Of a stretch of 64,000 bases of DNA, positions 13,348 to 51,082 are shown in pieces. A program made the translations under genes and the position numbers. The notes under the pieces are model-generated. The model worked only from the letters and a program-made list of their open reading frames with translations, searched no databases and had not been told where the DNA came from. How positions within the stretch are numbered: the first letter of the stretch is position 1; every line of letters begins with the position of its first letter. Origin of the DNA: Bryobacterales bacterium F-183 (GTDB taxonomy: Bacteria > Acidobacteriota > Terriglobia > Bryobacterales > Bryobacteraceae); assembly GCA_016865505.2 (NCBI GenBank), contig AP025252.1:2356001-2420000 (forward strand), in the 5' to 3' direction.

Positions 13348-15974
13348 AAGTCGGCATCGACCTCGGCACAACGAATTCGGCGCTTGCCTACATCGACCCG
13401 AAAGAGGCGCAGGAGGCGGACTTTCCGCCCATTCATGTGCTGGAGATCCCACAGACGGTGGCGCCAGAGACGGTGGAGTCCAGAAGGACACTGCCGTCGT
13501 TTCTGTTTTTAGGGCCGGATCAGACGTATGTGGGTGCGTTTGCGCGAGACCAAGGGGCGATTGTGCCGACTAAGTCCGTGCATTCGGCCAAAAGCTGGCT
13601 GTCGAACCCGGATGTGGATCGTACGGCGAAGATCCTGCCTTGGGATGCGCAGGAAGCGGGGCGGGTACTGTCGCCGGTGGAAGTGTCGGCCAAGGTGATT
13701 GGCCACATTGCCGAGGCATTTGAGAAGAAGTTCCAGCAGCCGTTGCGCGATCAGGAGATTGTGCTGACAGTGCCGGCGTCGTTCGATGAGGAAGCGCGCG
13801 AATTGACGGTAGCGGCGGCGAAGGAAGCGGGGATCGAGAAGTTCACCTTGCTGGAAGAACCTGCGGCGGCGTTTTATTCGTGGATCGCAAATGATCTGTC
13901 GAGGTCGCAGAAGGCGCTGTTTGACGGGCAGAATGTACTGATCTGCGACGTGGGCGGCGGTACGAGCGACTTTACCTTGATCAAGGTGAAGCGCGAGGGC
14001 GATCGTGTGGAGTTTACGCGTACGGCAGTGGGGAAGCACCTGCTGCTGGGCGGCGATAATCTCGATTTGACGTTGGCCTGGCTGGTGGAATCGAAGCTGG
14101 GCAAGACGCTGTCGATCCGGCAGAGGTCGGCGCTGCGGCGGCAGTGTGCGGCGGCGAAAGAGAAGCTGCTGGGCGATTCGAATCTGAAGACTGTCGACAT
14201 TACGGTGTTGGGTTCGGGATCGTCGGTGATTGGCGGTACGCTGCGGACCGAGATCACGCGGGAAGAGGCGCTGGAGTTGGCGCTGGACGGGTTCCTGCCG
14301 TTTTGCGAGCTCGGCGATAAGCCACAGGAAGAGAAGCGGAGTTTGTTCCGCGAGGTCGGGCTGCCGTATGTGTCGGATCCGGCGGTGACGCGGCATCTGG
14401 CGGCGTTTTTGAGTACGGCGGATGCGGCTCCGGACGCGATTCTGTTCAACGGCGGGTTCTTTATTCCGGATCTGCTGCGGGATCGCGTGGTGGACGTGAT
14501 CGAGAAGTGGTACGGCAAGCGTCCGGTGGTGTTTGAGAATCGCGACCTGGATCTGGCGGTGTCGGTGGGCGCGGCGTACTATTCGTACGCAAGGTCGACG
14601 GGGCAGGGGCTCATCGTGCGCGGCGGGCTGCCGCGGAGTTATTACCTGGGGGTCGCGTCGGCGAATCCGGACACGACGATTGAGACTCTGTGCGTGGTGC
14701 CTCGCGGGGCCGAAGAGGGCGATACGCTCGAGGTCGACAACGATGCGCTGCAGTTGGTGGCGAATAAGCCGGTGTCGTTCAAGCTGTACAGTTCGCTGAT
14801 TCGGGCGGAGGATCCGGTAGGGGCGGCGATTGCGTTTCCGGTGGCGGATTTGGAGTCCGGGGATCTGAAGTTGCATGCACCGTTGTCGGCGGTGATCCGG
14901 TTCGGGAAGCAGGGCGAGCGGTTGGTGCCGGTGAAGTTGGGCGCGAAGCTGACCGAAGTTGGCACGATTGCGATGTGGGCGGATTCGAAGGTCAGCGAGC
15001 ATCGGTGGCGGCTGGAGTTCGAACTGCGGAAGCAGGCGCAGGCGTCGGCCGTGCGTGCGGCGGCGGTGGTGTCCGATGAGGCGATGGCAGCGGCGGCGAA
15101 GCTGATCGCGGATGTGTTTGAAGGCGACGGGGCTCCGGAAGAGTTGCCAAGCAAGATGGAGCAGGCGCTGGGCTTGGGACGTAACTCATGGCCGCTCTCG
15201 GCGATCCGGAAGTTTGCGGATCAGATGCTGGAACTTGCGGCGGGCCGCAAGCGTAGCGCGGCGCATGAACTGCGGTGGCTGAATCTGTGCGGGTTCTGTT
15301 TGCGGCCGGGGTTTGGATTCCCGGGCGATGATTACCGGATTGAGCAGGCGCGGCGGGTGTACGCATCGGGGCTGACGTTTGCGAATCAGGTACAGAACGA
15401 GATCGACTGGTGGATCTTCTGCGGGCGTGTGGCCGGCGGGTTGAATCGTAACCAGCAGGTGGACATCTTCCAGCGGATTTCGCCGTTTTTGCTGCCGAAG
15501 TTCAATAAGAAGCCGCCGCGGGTGAATACGAGCCTGATGCGCGAGATGTGGCGTACGGCATCGAGTTTGGAACTGCTGCCGCAGCAGACGCGAACGCAGA
15601 TCGGCGATGCGCTGGTGGAACGGATCAAGAAGGGCGAGATGGTGGAAGTGGCGCTGTGGTGCCTGTCCCGCCTGGGTGCCCGCAAGCTGTTTTACGGGCC
15701 GATCAACCAGGTGCTGCCGGCGGGTACGGCGACGCGGTGGATTGAGGCTGTGTCGAAAGTGCCGCATTCTGCCGATGCTGTGCTGTCGATGGCACGTGTG
15801 ACGGGCGATGGTACGAGGGATCTGGCTCCGGCGGCGCTGGATACGGTGCGGCGTGCGTTTCCGGATCTGGATCTGGAAGCGGACGAGTCGTCCGATTTGC
15901 GTCACATGGCCAAGATGTTCGGCGAGGAACTGCCTGCCGGGCTCGTGCTGGCTACGGCTGTGGCTTCGGAATGA
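13344..15974 (+). CDS. Hsp70-family protein B with long C-terminal extension (DUF3731-type)
   Basis: The start is the GTG at 13344, which overlaps the hsp70A stop and gives VGIDLGTTNSALAY at the N-terminus; an upstream frame to 13275 exists but would add residues before the phosphate-1 loop. The product is 876 residues. The nucleotide-binding domain has GIDLGTTNS, CDVGGGTSDFTLIKV and ILFNGGFFIPDLLRDRV. The beta domain spans about 410-590, followed by a 280-residue helical region (KRSAAHELRWLNLCGF, NQVQNEIDWWIFCGRVAGGL in parts) matching the DUF3731 extension seen on some DnaK relatives. It is predicted cytosolic, coupled both to hsp70A and, via ATGA, to thiL. Client unknown. Confidence 0.85.
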   Translation: MKVGIDLGTTNSALAYIDPKEAQEADFPPIHVLEIPQTVAPETVESRRTLPSFLFLGPDQTYVGAFARDQGAIVPTKSVHSAKSWLSNPDVDRTAKILPWDAQEAGRVLSPVEVSAKVIGHIAEAFEKKFQQPLRDQEIVLTVPASFDEEARELTVAAAKEAGIEKFTLLEEPAAAFYSWIANDLSRSQKALFDGQNVLICDVGGGTSDFTLIKVKREGDRVEFTRTAVGKHLLLGGDNLDLTLAWLVESKLGKTLSIRQRSALRRQCAAAKEKLLGDSNLKTVDITVLGSGSSVIGGTLRTEITREEALELALDGFLPFCELGDKPQEEKRSLFREVGLPYVSDPAVTRHLAAFLSTADAAPDAILFNGGFFIPDLLRDRVVDVIEKWYGKRPVVFENRDLDLAVSVGAAYYSYARSTGQGLIVRGGLPRSYYLGVASANPDTTIETLCVVPRGAEEGDTLEVDNDALQLVANKPVSFKLYSSLIRAEDPVGAAIAFPVADLESGDLKLHAPLSAVIRFGKQGERLVPVKLGAKLTEVGTIAMWADSKVSEHRWRLEFELRKQAQASAVRAAAVVSDEAMAAAAKLIADVFEGDGAPEELPSKMEQALGLGRNSWPLSAIRKFADQMLELAAGRKRSAAHELRWLNLCGFCLRPGFGFPGDDYRIEQARRVYASGLTFANQVQNEIDWWIFCGRVAGGLNRNQQVDIFQRISPFLLPKFNKKPPRVNTSLMREMWRTASSLELLPQQTRTQIGDALVERIKKGEMVEVALWCLSRLGARKLFYGPINQVLPAGTATRWIEAVSKVPHSADAVLSMARVTGDGTRDLAPAALDTVRRAFPDLDLEADESSDLRHMAKMFGEELPAGLVLATAVASE

Positions 15975-16825
15975 ACGAAGGGCAGATCATCGACTGGATC
16001 CGGAAGCATGCGGGTCCGCCGACGCGGGAACTGGTGCTGGGGATCGGCGACGACTGCGCGATTTATCGTCCACGCAAGGGCGAGGATCAGGTCTTCACGA
16101 CGGACTTTCTGATCGAGGATGTCCACTTCACGCGGGAGATCTTTCCGCCGGAGGCGGCGGGGCATAAAGCGCTGGCGCGGAGCTTGAGCGACTTGGCGGC
16201 GATGGGCGGGGAGCCTCGCTTCTGTTTGTTGTCGTTGGCGATGCCGCCGATGCTCGATCCCAAATGGCTGGAAGGCTTTTTACGCGGGTTTTTGAAGCTG
16301 GCGAAGAAGTACGGAATCGTGCTGGCGGGCGGAGATCTGTCGCGGGCACCGAAGATCGTGTGCGACGTCATGGCGTGTGGCGGTGTGCCGGAAGGCAAGG
16401 CTCTGCGTCGCGACGGGGCGCGGCCGGGGGACGTGATTTACGTGTCCGGGCGATTGGGTAAGCCTTGGCAGACACATCAGAAGCCGGTGCCTCGGCTGGA
16501 GTTCGGGAAGCTGCTGCGGGGTCGAGCAACGGCGGCGATGGACTTGAGCGACGGGATTTCGATGGACCTGAACCGGTTGTGCAAGGCATCCGGGGTAGCG
16601 GCGTCGCTGGAGAAGATCCCGCTGGTGAAGGGTACTTCGCTCGAGCAGGCGCTGCATGGCGGTGAGGACTATGAACTGGTGTTCACGATGCCGGCGCGGT
16701 TGAAACCGCCGAAGGGTAGCCTGCGGGTCGGAGTGATCGAGGCGGGAGACCCCGGGTTGATCAATTTTGAGGAAACCGCGCTGGAACCTCTGGGGCATGA
16801 CCACTTTCGAGCGGACGGCCTGTAG
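15971..16825 (+). CDS. thiL: Thiamine-monophosphate kinase
   Basis: 284 residues, starting in an ATGA overlap with hsp70B. ThiL phosphorylates thiamine monophosphate to the diphosphate cofactor. Visible motifs are GIGDDCAIYRP near residue 25 (Mg/ATP Asp pair), TTDFLIEDVHF, the helix AGHKALARSLSDLAAMGGEPR, GGDLSRAP, the AMDLSDGISMDLNRL segment near 195 and a GEDYELVFTM motif near 235. The length is a little below the usual 310-330 residues because the loop after VYVSGRLG is short. Its position at the end of a chaperone operon is not an obvious functional link; co-transcription may be incidental. Confidence 0.92.
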   Translation: MNEGQIIDWIRKHAGPPTRELVLGIGDDCAIYRPRKGEDQVFTTDFLIEDVHFTREIFPPEAAGHKALARSLSDLAAMGGEPRFCLLSLAMPPMLDPKWLEGFLRGFLKLAKKYGIVLAGGDLSRAPKIVCDVMACGGVPEGKALRRDGARPGDVIYVSGRLGKPWQTHQKPVPRLEFGKLLRGRATAAMDLSDGISMDLNRLCKASGVAASLEKIPLVKGTSLEQALHGGEDYELVFTMPARLKPPKGSLRVGVIEAGDPGLINFEETALEPLGHDHFRADGL

Positions 16826-39023: not shown

Positions 39024-39766
39024 AGACTTTATTTGTAGCGGCAGCGATGTCGGTGGTTGCCTTTGGTCAAGCAGCGGCGTTGCCGACGGGCGAGAGTCTT
39101 TTTGACAAGTACGTTGAGGTGACGGGCGGCAAGGCGGCGTACGCCAAGCGGACGTCCGAGGTGACCAAAGGTACGATTCAAATGCCTGCGGCTGGTGTGA
39201 GCGGGACCTTGGAAATCTATTGGGCTGCGCCGAATGTACGTGTGGCGCTGATGGATGTGCAGGGCGTTGGCAAAGTGGAAGAGGGTACCAATGGCGTGGA
39301 AGCTTGGGAAGTCTCCGCCGTGATGGGGCCCAAGCTGAAGGACGGCAAAGAGAAGGCGCAGGCGATTCGCGAGGCGCTGTTCAATATGCCGATTTACTGG
39401 CGCAAGCTGTATTCGAAGGCGCAGACCACGGGGGTTGAGACGGTGGAAGGCATCGAGTGCTATCGCGTGGTAGCGACGCCGACGGATGGCAGCAAAGTGG
39501 AAACCTTCTGGTTCGACAAAACGACGGGATACAACGTGAAGGTGTCGCGCACGGTGCTGGCGATGGGTAGCGAGATTCCGGCGGAGATCGTGATGAAGGA
39601 CTATCAGAAGTCCGGCTTTGTGATCCAGCCGATGACGATGATCCAGCGAGTGGGCGGGCAAGAAGTGATCCTGAAGCTGACTACGGTGACCGCTAACGCA
39701 CCGATTCCTAAGACGCGGTTCGCGCCTCCGCCAGACATTCAGCAGTTGATGAAAAAGGCCGCCTAG
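39020..39766 (+). CDS. Exported LolA-like/outer-membrane lipoprotein-sorting-type protein
   Basis: 248 residues with signal peptide MKTLFVAAAMSVVAFGQA. The mature part (LFDKYVEVTGGKAAYAKRTSEVTKGTI, read in parts) and the later GYNVKVSRTV and KTRFAPPPDIQQL segments resemble the curved beta-sheet LolA/DUF620 group common in acidobacteria, where it often follows peptidase genes. It is coupled to the S41 gene by ATGA, so the two are likely to work together in the periplasm. The stop is shared with the convergent DUF3179 gene through CTAG inside a hairpin. Confidence 0.7.
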   Translation: MKTLFVAAAMSVVAFGQAAALPTGESLFDKYVEVTGGKAAYAKRTSEVTKGTIQMPAAGVSGTLEIYWAAPNVRVALMDVQGVGKVEEGTNGVEAWEVSAVMGPKLKDGKEKAQAIREALFNMPIYWRKLYSKAQTTGVETVEGIECYRVVATPTDGSKVETFWFDKTTGYNVKVSRTVLAMGSEIPAEIVMKDYQKSGFVIQPMTMIQRVGGQEVILKLTTVTANAPIPKTRFAPPPDIQQLMKKAA

Positions 39767-39774
39767 CGGCCTTT
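39754..39774. terminator. Bidirectional hairpin across overlapping stop codons
   Basis: AAAGGCCGC (39754-39762), loop CTA, GCGGCCTTT (39766-39774). On the minus strand the GC stem runs into TTTTT, a good intrinsic terminator for the DUF3179 gene; in the plus direction only three T follow. Both stop codons lie in the loop and stem. Confidence 0.7.
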
Positions 39775-40947
39775 GGGAAGGCTGTAAACAGTGGTTTGCG
39801 GATTGTAGTGCTTCCAGTCAAACCAGTAATCTTTGAGCATCGGCACCGGCTCCAGGCAGGTGCCTTTTGCTTTTCCTTCTACTGCGCAGCCCTTGAAGTT
39901 CCACTCGCTGCCTGAGGCTGCGTCCATCATCAGAACGCCGCCTGCTTTGGGCGGGTCCAGGCGGTAGAAGTCGGCGCCTGCCGAGTTGCGGAAGGCACGG
40001 ACGGAGGTCCCGTCGCTGCCGACCAGGAGCAGCACGGACTCTGAGCCGATGCGGTCCTGCACGAGCTTTTGCGAGAGCACCTGTTGATACGGGTACGCGC
40101 GGGCGGCCCCAAAAGCGCGGATGCCGAGCATGAGATCGCGGTCGGCGATGCCTTTTTCTGCGGCGCTCTTGACGACGGGTTGCTTGGCCATGCGTACGTC
40201 CCAGTTCTTGGGGGCGTAGTTTTTCTCGAATTCGGCCACGTCCTTTAGGGCGGTGCCCTGCGGTTCTTCGGCGCGCCAAGTGGCCAGTGTCAACTCGTCG
40301 GAGTGGATGAGTTGGAGTTGCTTGCCTTTAAGCGGACCTGAGATGGCGAGGCCGCTGATCTGCTGCCAGAAGCTGCCGGTCTGTTCGTCGCGCATGAGGA
40401 AGTTCTGGTTGTTGATGCCTGCAAGACGGAACGTGAGAGTGAGGCCATCGACCTCGCGGGACCACACCAGACCGGTGTGACAGAGCGTTCAATACGTCGC
40501 CACAACGGCGCGGCTATCCAGCGTGTCGTTGAGTATGTGATGGTACGCCATGCTGCGTACGGGGTACGCGCGTGCGGTGTTGCCGATGCGGATGGCAAGT
40601 ACTTTCTCGTCGCCGTCAAGCTTGAGGTCGCTGGCTGCGATGAATTGCGGTTGATCCACCGGGTGGAACATCAGTTCGAAAACGTTGATGTAGGAGACTG
40701 CGGCGAACGCGCATACCGCGAAGGCGGCGAGCCCGCGGAGGATGCGCTGTTTGCGCGAGGTGGAGCGCCATAAGGTGAAGATCGCAAGGGCGGCGCAGAG
40801 CGCGGTGATCCAGGGACGAATTTGGAGTACGGTGAGGGCGAGGGCGAGTTCGCTGGGGCCCTGTTCGCGGAAGGGCCGGATGACGTACATCGGGTAGGCG
40901 GCGCAGAAGGCGGCGGCCAGGAAGCTGAGGGCGAGAATCCAGCGCAT
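39763..40947 (-). CDS. DUF3179-family membrane protein with in-frame TGA at conserved Cys (selenoprotein candidate)
   Basis: Read through one TGA, the frame encodes 394 residues from the ATG at 40947. Residues 1-95 contain several hydrophobic helices (WILALSFLAAAFCAAY; ITALCAALAIFTLW; AAFAVCAFAAVSYINVF). The DUF3179 domain follows: VLAIRIGNTARAYPVRSMAYHHILNDTL, then VVATY-(TGA)-TLCHTGLVWSREVDG, GSFWQQISGLAISGPLKGKQL, and a second YP repeat GAARAYPYQQVL (read in parts). Family members have TYC-x-x-C-x-T/S-G here, so the TGA (40489-40491, codon 153) stands exactly where the first conserved Cys belongs, giving U-T-L-C. Both sides are in the same frame with no other lesion, and a SECIS-like hairpin follows. 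The alternative is a pseudogene made by one point mutation. Confidence 0.7.
40463..40479 (-). promoter_or_regulatory. Candidate bacterial SECIS-like stem-loop
   Basis: On the minus strand CACACC-GGUCU-GGUGUG forms a perfect 6-bp stem (wobble pairs extend it by two) closed by the pentaloop GGUCU, 15 nt after the TGA at 40489-40491. The E. coli fdhF SECIS also presents GGUCU in its apical loop, at about 18 nt. The spacing here is at the short edge of what is usual. Confidence 0.5.
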
Positions 40948-49584: not shown

Positions 49585-49659
49585 GCGGGAGTAATTCAGC
49601 GGTAGAATGTCAGCTTCCCAAGCTGAACGTCGCCGGTTCGATCCCGGTCTCCCGCTCCA
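49585..49659 (+). tRNA. tRNA-Gly (anticodon CCC)
   Basis: Acceptor GCGGGAG (49585-49591) pairs with CTCCCGC (49649-49655). The anticodon stem TCAGC/GCTGA encloses the loop TTCCCAA, giving anticodon CCC. The T loop GGTTCGATCC is canonical, the discriminator is T, and CCA is encoded. It decodes GGG. The adjoining integrase makes its 3' end the likely attachment site of the island. Confidence 0.95.
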
Positions 49660-49722: not shown

Positions 49723-50811
49723 CTACATGACTGGAAGGGCTGATTCCAGAGCGTCTACCGCTACTTTCCGCCGTTGAACGGAAGCCTTCGTGTAAACGTT
49801 CTGATTGACATCGACGGTGTGGCCGAGCTGGTCGGCTACAAGTTTCGGGTCGTCGTGGATCTCGTTCATCAACGTCGAATGCGTTCTTCGCATCGCGTGA
49901 AAATCCACCCAGGGAAGACCCGCTGCTTCTAGCGCTGGCCCGATCTTCCAGCGCCAAACGCTGTCACGGCCAAGAGGCGTCTCGCCGGTTTCTGAGGGAA
50001 ACACCCAAGCGTCGGGGCTTGAGTCAATCGAGACCTGCTTCCAGGCTTCAATCTCCGCGATAAGGCCAGCAGACAGCGCTGCCTTTCGAACGGAGTTTGA
50101 AGTTTTTGGCGAGTCGATCTCCCCGCGGTAGAGGCGCTGCTTAACATGGACGTGGGTCTGGCCGATGTGGCCCCACTTCAGGGCCAGAATCTCACCGGGT
50201 CGAAGCCCAGCAAGAATTGCGAACTTCAGGATGAGCCGTTCGCGTTGCTCAACTGCAAAAAAGCATTTCTGCACCTCCTCTAGGGTCATGGCAGTGTGTT
50301 CTGGCCGCTTGGCTTCGCGTGGAATGAAGAGCAGTTCTGCTGGGTTCCTTGAGAGGTAGCCCTCAGAGACGGCCATCCTAAGGACCTGCCGAAGATCCCA
50401 CCTAAGATGGGCAACGACGCTATAGGAGAGGCCACTTTGAGCTTTCTCGTCGAGAAACGTTTGAAGCTCATCTCTGCTTAGGCTCCCTAGGCTTCGTTCC
50501 CCAAAGGCTGCTTCAAGGTGCACTCGAAGCCGGTCCTCATTGGTTGTGGCCGTAGAGCGTTTCCACTTCCGTTTGTAGAAGGGGAGGTAGATTGCGTTTA
50601 CGAACTCGATCCACTTCTTCTGAGGTGACGGAGAGTCAGAGCGGCTGTTGATCGGAGCAAGGATTGCGTCCAGCTCTTTTCGTGCATCGGCCTTAGCTAC
50701 GCTAGATGCCGAGCCAAGTGTCCGCTTTTTCCTTCTCCCGTTTTCCCACCACTGGGCGATCCACTTGCCTTCGACCTTCTTTAGACTTCCTTTCTGATAT
50801 CGCTTTCGCAT
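49723..50811 (-). CDS. Tyrosine recombinase/integrase
   Basis: The start is the ATG at 50811 (MRKRYQKGSL), with AAGGAA upstream, giving 362 residues; a longer frame to 50892 would overlap the excisionase gene. The N-terminal AP2/Arm-type segment (KVEGKWIAQWWENG) binds arm sites, the core-binding SAM-like domain is at about 65-150, and the catalytic domain holds R204 (AGLRPGEI), H305-x-x-R308 (FHAMRRTHS), H331 (QLGHTVDV) and the nucleophile Y340 (NQNVYTK). All expected residues are present, so it should be active in integrating the island at tRNA-Gly. Its 3' end lies 63 bp from the tRNA. Confidence 0.93.
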   Translation of the reverse strand: MRKRYQKGSLKKVEGKWIAQWWENGRRKKRTLGSASSVAKADARKELDAILAPINSRSDSPSPQKKWIEFVNAIYLPFYKRKWKRSTATTNEDRLRVHLEAAFGERSLGSLSRDELQTFLDEKAQSGLSYSVVAHLRWDLRQVLRMAVSEGYLSRNPAELLFIPREAKRPEHTAMTLEEVQKCFFAVEQRERLILKFAILAGLRPGEILALKWGHIGQTHVHVKQRLYRGEIDSPKTSNSVRKAALSAGLIAEIEAWKQVSIDSSPDAWVFPSETGETPLGRDSVWRWKIGPALEAAGLPWVDFHAMRRTHSTLMNEIHDDPKLVADQLGHTVDVNQNVYTKASVQRRKVAVDALESALPVM

Positions 50812-50824
50812 GTCGGAATTCCTT

Positions 50825-51082
50825 TCATGCGTCTGCGGTGTCGAGCGTTGGCGATGATCGGATCGTAGCAGTTTTGGCTTCGCTTTCATCAAGCCATTGA
50901 ACGAGGGCCGACCGCCTTACGAGGCTTCGACGGCCAAGGCGAATCGAGGGAAGGGGAGCTACGCCGGAAACGCGGCCTGAGATCAAGTTATGTACGTGGG
51001 CTTTTGAGCAGCGAAGCGATTTCGCTACTTCGCTTGCCGTCATGATCTCGGACAGAACTGATGTCATCGGTTGAATGCCCAT
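50825..51082 (-). CDS. Excisionase/AlpA-like helix-turn-helix protein
   Basis: 85 residues. The HTH segment TASEVAKSLRCSKAHVHNLISGRVSGVAPLPSIRLGRRSLVRRSALVQWLDE (read in parts) has the winged MerR/excisionase form with the GRR wing turn. Directly upstream of the integrase on the same strand and 13 bp from its chosen start, it probably controls directionality of recombination (Xis) or integrase expression. The start ATG at 51082 is followed by a second Met at residue 6, which is also possible. Confidence 0.85.
   Translation of the reverse strand: MGIQPMTSVLSEIMTASEVAKSLRCSKAHVHNLISGRVSGVAPLPSIRLGRRSLVRRSALVQWLDESEAKTATIRSSPTLDTADA

Follow-up and report, generated by a model that had tools for sequence, protein, structure and literature searches.

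Comparative evidence for a DUF3179-family selenoprotein gene with a SECIS-type hairpin in Bryobacterales bacterium F-183

The gene at positions 39763–40947 of the 64,000-nucleotide stretch of Bryobacterales bacterium F-183 DNA that we analysed (hereafter 'the window') is, with a probability that we put at roughly 0.96 on the basis of sequence comparison, a bacterial gene that truly encodes a selenoprotein of the DUF3179 family. It had been put forward as a selenoprotein candidate from the letters of the window (the original prediction), and this reading is now supported by the presence of the selenocysteine (Sec) machinery in the same genome, by the recurrence of TGA at one and the same position among relatives and by a hairpin that is conserved at synonymous sites. 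The original prediction had also named the outcomes that would speak against it – a genome lacking the machinery, further lesions in the gene of close relatives, or an isolated recent change from Cys to TGA with no conserved hairpin – and we looked for each of these and encountered none.

The gene starts with the ATG at 40947, ends with the TAG at 39765–39763 and has 394 codons, including one UGA as the predicted Sec153. While its location had been given correctly, the strand had been left out: the whole gene lies on the (–) strand, and the same register on the (+) strand contains five stops. The single in-frame TGA (40489–40491, (–) strand), on both sides of which the frame had been reported as open, is confirmed by a frame that runs through 394 residues to the TAG. 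As judged by translation, the motif around the TGA reads VATY-U-TLCHTGLVW, which places U153, the first position of U-T-L-C, exactly where it had been proposed to lie, at the first Cys of the DUF3179 motif TY-C-x-x-C-H-T-G; the in-frame UGA thus stands where homologues hold a conserved Cys, as is expected of a selenoprotein. Cys156, which is encoded at 40480–40482 ((–) strand) and completes the U-x-x-C pair, is invariant in 63 aligned sequences. Membership of the family rests on a match to PF11376 (DUF3179) over residues 97–385 (E=5.5e-61, 207 bits as compared to a gathering cut-off of 27), and this gene alone accounts for the DUF3179 matches in its 6.28-Mb genome.

A search of that genome for the Sec machinery, as had been advised, returned selA (455.9 bits, cut-off 267.9), selB (387.1 bits, cut-off 242.25), selD (373.8 bits, cut-off 125) and tRNA-Sec, that is, selC (74.9 bits), all above their cut-offs. 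The gathering score of 47 for the tRNA-Sec model is also passed by a tRNA-Leu of the same genome, at 47.5 bits, and the tRNA-Sec is called as tRNA-SeC with the anticodon tca by ARAGORN as well. SelA, SelB, SelD and a tRNA-Sec(UCA) are therefore all encoded, as a selenoprotein would require. The window itself holds a weak selD-family match at 15950–16459 (+), which at 70.5 bits is below the cut-off and probably belongs to an ATP-binding enzyme of a related type; selD proper is found in another part of the genome.

The same TGA recurs in relatives. DUF3179 was found in 31 of the 61 related genomes searched, with 12 TGA copies (our own included) that share one column and each carry the hairpin, and with one copy (L046, genome G015) that has TGC and no GGTCT loop. 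The copy from the same genus, which is 75% identical (L047), shares both TGA and hairpin and contains no further stop ahead of its TAG, and so the check for extra lesions in close relatives revealed none there. A scan of named genomes yielded 158 loci encoding a relative; the best 80 of the 158, mostly titled Bryobacterales, Acidobacteriaceae, Terriglobia or Acidobacteria, comprised 68 TGA and 12 Cys forms, a TGA share that is not that of the family since the loci were ranked by likeness to our own protein. After removal of nine duplicates from 92 parsed rows we were left with 83 orthologues, 71 with TGA at the column of codon 153 and 12 with TGC; two copies, L044 and L122, lie outside this parsed set, and L122, which we read separately, is a Cys form. 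The copy L044 (genome G010), with an in-frame TAA, was kept out of the TGA forms: it belongs to another DUF3179 subfamily and has TGC at the motif, with the TAA not at the Cys. With its single in-frame TAA, this gene, located within 1500–2355 of L044, is possibly a pseudogene or the product of an assembly error. Finally, DUF3179 is present in 133 of the 396 genomes of a phylum-wide sample, where 52 of the 150 matches listed contain internal stops, in every case TGA and never TAA or TAG. We could resolve 45 of these 52 listed rows (the remainder being our own copy and six others), and all 45 carry TGA at the motif column; in two of them another TGA, probably the terminal stop, follows 236–239 codons later. 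The row set of resolved phylum and related copies does not contain L052. The comparison of homologues that had been suggested thus finds many other members with TGA at the same column, and the recurrence of column and hairpin in relatives is not what an isolated recent mutation would leave behind.

The predicted SECIS hairpin occupies 40462–40480 on the (–) strand and consists of a 7-bp stem (TCACACC/GGTGTGG) and the loop GGTCT (40473–40469). Both loop and stem had been noted before; the distance of 15 nt given then is that from the TGA to the loop, and the 7-bp stem begins 8 nt past the TGA. In the de-duplicated set the loop GGTCT is found in 71 of 71 TGA and 0 of 12 TGC orthologues, and the TGA forms have seven stem pairs in 66 cases, six in 1 and five in 4. 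The Gly codon of the loop is GGT in all 71 TGA genes – which, the orthologues being related, are not 71 independent events – in none of the 12 TGC forms, and in 12% of the other Gly codons of the same genes. Since TGA column and loop are present together in 71 of the 83 orthologues, with GGT in 71 of 71 as compared to 12% elsewhere, their occurrence is far above chance. Among the 71 TGA genes we ranked 92 codon columns that are conserved and degenerate by their synonymous variation: the lowest seven comprise five hairpin codons and the two codons that flank the TGA, and the relative synonymous entropy averages 0.074 over the hairpin as compared to 0.894 in 84 other columns. The flanking codons, TAT (40492–40494) before and ACG (40486–40488) after the TGA on the (–) strand, are identical in 97% of these 71 genes, a constraint that nearly equals that on the hairpin and that perhaps reflects an effect of UGA context. 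Furthermore, in two orthologues that are close relatives of each other (L088 and L100) the closing C-G pair is exchanged for G-C and the stem is kept.

In the TGA copies outside our own clade (28 resolved, mostly with U-P-L motifs) the hairpin is located 5 nt further downstream, in what we refer to as register B, register A being that of our own clade. In 27 distinct sequences of these other-subfamily hairpins, 96.8% of the cells are paired as compared to 80.0% in shuffles, 23 cells are changed on both sides as compared to 4.2, such changes affect 5 of the 7 pairs, and the covariation of 0.463 drops to at most 0.132 when the hairpin is slid. Two TGA orthologues of our own clade, L114 and L121, have five pairs in register A and seven in register B, with the loop GGTCT in both; their best stem lies 5 nt downstream of that of their clade-mates and is formed by a different stem within the same coding stretch. 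When all subfamilies are taken together, six or more pairs are formed in one register or the other by 113 of the 116 TGA copies, the exceptions being L078, L084 and L195. Collectively, the comparisons show that the UGA forms preserve the predicted hairpin, both through constraint on synonymous sites and through compensatory changes; a SECIS-type hairpin shortly past the UGA that selection maintains is a further feature expected of a selenoprotein gene. Searched with Rfam, the whole window gave no SECIS match and only a tRNA elsewhere reached its gathering score, and the 301 bases around the TGA gave two chance-level matches, neither of them a SECIS.

How the UGA forms are distributed with respect to the machinery was followed in the phylum sample, where selA at E≤1e-60 is present in 252 of 396 genomes. 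Among the genomes listed with a TGA copy, 43 of 46 have selA (Fisher p=1.2e-6, a descriptive value as the genomes are related). The three that have a TGA copy and no selA (G106, G140 and G376), together with G031 from the 61 related genomes, have a tRNA-Sec at 68.0–71.2 bits; G031 has a TGA copy and a tRNA-Sec, no selA over the cut-off, and an assembly that is 10% contaminated. That selA is also found in 68 of the 87 genomes without a listed TGA row is expected, since Cys subfamilies coexist with the Sec trait. One family, f8, has a DUF3179 match in 13 genomes of the sample. In ten of these the copy is free of internal stops (with TGC read directly in four: G154, G231, G190 and G388), and these ten are without selA; their best matches to the tRNA-Sec model score 45.0–51.3 bits, with G190, at 51.3 bits, above the gathering score of 47. 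The sole f8 genome among those listed with TGA, G144, has selA and a tRNA-Sec of 72.3 bits. Left out of this ten-to-one comparison were G269, which has selA and whose rows fell outside the matches listed, and G411, which has no selA and whose match has an E of 4.9e-4. A Cys copy is not always paired with loss of the machinery, since G015, which belongs to a family other than f8, carries a Cys copy (L046), a Sec copy (L054) and selA.

The direction of change between Sec and Cys was read from a tree of 168 domains (115 with U and 53 with C) that was built by a quick maximum-likelihood method and rooted at its midpoint, with 61 of its 163 inner branches below 80 in support; the tree is without L044 and L196 and includes L053 on a very long branch. 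It contains at least six changes of state between Sec and Cys. In a clade of 104 rows with HTG-type genes, all Cys forms fall into one nested group of 16 with an SH-aLRT of 100, and for this reason the Cys forms of this clade most likely arose by a Sec-to-Cys change. Outside the HTG clade, the tree places the 28 TGA copies in several groups. The Cys copy of G015, L046, groups with the Cys clade from other genomes.

Several alternatives to Sec insertion have to be weighed against these results. TGA and TGC are one nucleotide apart and Cys forms do exist, and a recent TGC-to-TGA mutation or a base-calling error could thus be imagined to truncate the gene. This is almost certainly not what happened here, the one TAA on record, that of L044, being in another subfamily and away from the motif: the TGA column is shared by 71 of 83 orthologues and by all 45 resolved copies of the phylum sample, each of the 52 internal stops among the 150 matches listed is TGA, the frame past the TGA is conserved, and the comparative data refute truncation by error unless a whole clade is erroneous. 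The UGA could instead be read by near-cognate suppression, or in a reassigned code as Trp or Cys, and to the amino acid itself the comparative data are blind. We consider this highly improbable, as TGA terminates the same gene in L041, L042, L043, L048 and L049, which argues against global reassignment there, as a tRNA-Sec(UCA) is present alongside SelA, SelB and SelD, and as the listed UGA genomes have either selA (43 of 46) or a tRNA-Sec (the other three), with the ten stop-free f8 genomes lacking selA.

The hairpin, in turn, may be a mere by-product of the codons for HTGLVW, with some other element directing Sec insertion. At least six pairs are found in 13 of 54 Cys copies, all of them in register A and none in register B (the same-protein pairs L193/L109 and L202/L096 were both kept in the counts of 116 and 54, and L053 is included among the 54 although its motif is unclear). 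As the HTGLVW peptide itself aids the register-A stem, it is the tests of synonymous sites and of covariation that carry the SECIS argument, and these make a by-product very unlikely: GGT is universal in the loops of the TGA genes as compared to 12% in the background and is seen in no Cys form of the 12, the stem of L088 and L100 is kept by a double change, L114 and L121 trade register-A pairs for a full register-B stem under the same loop, and the hairpin of the other subfamilies covaries. We therefore retain UGA-directed Sec insertion at a selected hairpin as the preferred reading.

An AlphaFold2 model of the protein (mean pLDDT 96.1) has three N-terminal helices followed by two similar beta domains. 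The helices (residues 2–22, 31–59 and 65–85; 40693–40947, (–) strand) are read as a putative membrane anchor on account of their hydrophobicity. The loop that joins helices 2 and 3 (residues ~61–71) is basic, which by the positive-inside rule suggests that the duplicated beta domain is periplasmic, or in any case outside the cytoplasm. The first beta domain (residues ~122–222; 40282–40584, (–) strand) holds U153 and the second (residues ~279–382; 39802–40113, (–) strand) holds C354 and C364. Compared by VIA-align, which takes a second look at Foldseek's own candidates and at Z below 8 may, as the tool warns, reflect merely a common arrangement, the whole model is matched by Rieske domains at residues 122–221 and ~279–381 with a best Z of 7.8 (for instance 3gce, Z 7.1, residues 122–221, and 7sze, Z 7.1, residues 279–380); one of the 50 rows listed, a nuclear-pore chain, aligns with the helices. 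With domain 1 on its own, Z is as high as 8.8, with 29 chains at Z ≥8, and the 50 rows listed for it are Rieske, NirD-like or oxygenase/arsenite-oxidase chains, the last two of which we take to hold Rieske domains too. Foldseek itself gave no match at E≤0.001 for the whole model or for domain 1, its best match to domain 1 being 3c0d, titled putative nitrite reductase small subunit (E=0.035, probability 1.00). Searched by sequence, solved structures gave two weak matches with one protein as the query (E 0.13 and 0.54) and none with a profile, and NCBIfam returned 0 families.

Could the DUF3179 domain then be a metal-binding or electron-transfer domain of Rieske-like ancestry, with Sec or Cys as a ligand, rather than a thiol or selenol oxidoreductase? 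The superposition of both halves on Rieske domains points that way, and so does the variation at the second Cys, which is replaced by A, V or D in 16 of the 28 UGA copies resolved in other subfamilies; this weakens a simple U-x-x-C redox pair and means that the pair is not essential to the DUF3179 family. Copies of the UxxA, UxxV, UxxD or UxxT type, with no partner Cys, are L143, L145, L154, L156, L160, L164, L165, L168, L170–L172 and L194–L200. The Rieske cluster motif is C-x-H ... C-x-x-H, and CTH is present in the matched Rieske chains. Against the metal-binding alternative stands the absence of any C-x-H from the 394-residue protein, even with Sec read as Cys. By alignment offset, moreover, U153 lies close to residues 28–32 of BphA3, about a dozen before Rieske box I (C43/H45), a match inferred at residue level since the structural aligner gives ranges only, and a profile comparison of DUF3179 with Rieske (hhalign) finds no link, with a probability of 0.6%. 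A candidate mimic of the cluster motif, Y135-x-H137 ... U153-x-x-C156, was dropped given this offset and the hhalign result. The absent motif, the absent profile match and the Sec site elsewhere in the fold by offset lead us to call both halves Rieske-like in their predicted fold and the protein not a Rieske protein; a ligand role for Sec we regard as unlikely, though it is a serious competitor. Most likely, as far as the model allows us to judge, the biochemical role is that of a membrane-anchored selenol redox protein.

If what is established for Sec in bacteria applies here, SelB carrying Sec-tRNA(Sec) would bind the hairpin and decode the UGA as Sec, and the product would be a 394-residue protein with U153-x-x-C156, anchored in the cytoplasmic membrane by its three N-terminal helices if the model is right. 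The selenol may then serve as the nucleophile or the electron-transferring group of an extracytoplasmic redox reaction, which is the least certain step, with C156 as the likely resolving partner of U153 in our own clade. Put together, DUF3179 might be an ancient family of membrane-anchored extracytoplasmic selenoenzymes with two Rieske-like domains that lack the cluster motif, in which Sec is ancestral in our own clade, the SECIS hops between registers 5 nt apart with the coding sequence in place, and one lineage has reverted to Cys, for the most part in genomes that no longer have the Sec machinery. We offer this composite picture tentatively and consider it rather less likely than not.

The gene's surroundings offer no operon clue and no functional hint: of 55 stretches with full flanks, the window among them, no more than 11 share any one cluster of neighbours, and the window is absent from each of the 14 largest. 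A tRNA gene at 49585–49656 (+), followed close by at 49723–50892 (–) by an integrase-like ORF, may mark an integrated element.

The suggestion that selenoproteins of the DUF3179 family might be new did not hold. Two reviews table a DUF3179 domain-containing protein (PF11376, UxxC/T) as a prokaryotic selenoprotein family (PMC9312934, PMC13188914), and each refers to Zhang & Gladyshev 2007 (Olavius symbiont) for it; this is not a new kind of selenoprotein, and the family, already listed as selenium-containing, is little studied. The string 'acidobacteri' occurs 0 times in the texts of these two reviews. For one Acidobacteriota genome, a 2025 tool paper gives a count of three known selenoproteins and does not mention DUF3179 (PMC12013277), a 2006 survey counts three selenoprotein families in Acidobacteria (PMC1794560), and a table of Idiomarina proteins has a single entry for DUF3179, assigned to the cytoplasmic membrane (PMC9230427). 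In the portions of the literature covered by our search on DUF3179/PF11376 and on selenoproteins and SECIS of Acidobacteriota, we found no earlier report of DUF3179 selenoproteins in this phylum. To this the present analysis adds their distribution across Acidobacteriota, a single nested reversion from Sec to Cys, the occurrence of the SECIS hairpin in either of two registers, and a predicted fold of two tandem Rieske-like domains that lack the Rieske motif. In many genomes of this phylum the gene will be truncated by gene finders for which UGA is a stop, and a widespread selenium-dependent protein is thereby hidden. The Sec forms, the nested Cys reversion, the variants without a partner Cys and the two registers make up a natural series in which the benefit of Sec and the movement of SECIS elements can be tested, and the predicted fold with its Sec site is a starting point toward the function of DUF3179.

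As compared to the listed DUF3179 selenoproteins, the protein described here belongs to the same Pfam family, and its Sec likewise takes the position of the first Cys in the x-x-C/T motif; the set differs in its spread over Acidobacteriota, in its UxxA, UxxV and UxxD variants and in its two SECIS registers. With Rieske [2Fe-2S] domains and NirD it shares the predicted fold of both halves, but DUF3179 is without C-x-H, has its Sec site elsewhere in the fold by offset and has no profile similarity to them. Finally, the resemblance of the loop to that of the E. coli fdhF SECIS, pointed out in the original prediction, is real: in the stretch used for comparison, which is 100% identical in fdhF, a small hairpin just past the UGA carries the same GGTCT loop. 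The stem letters differ, however, a different peptide constrains the sequence, and the loop begins 18 nt past the UGA in fdhF as compared to 15 nt here, that is, 3 nt closer.
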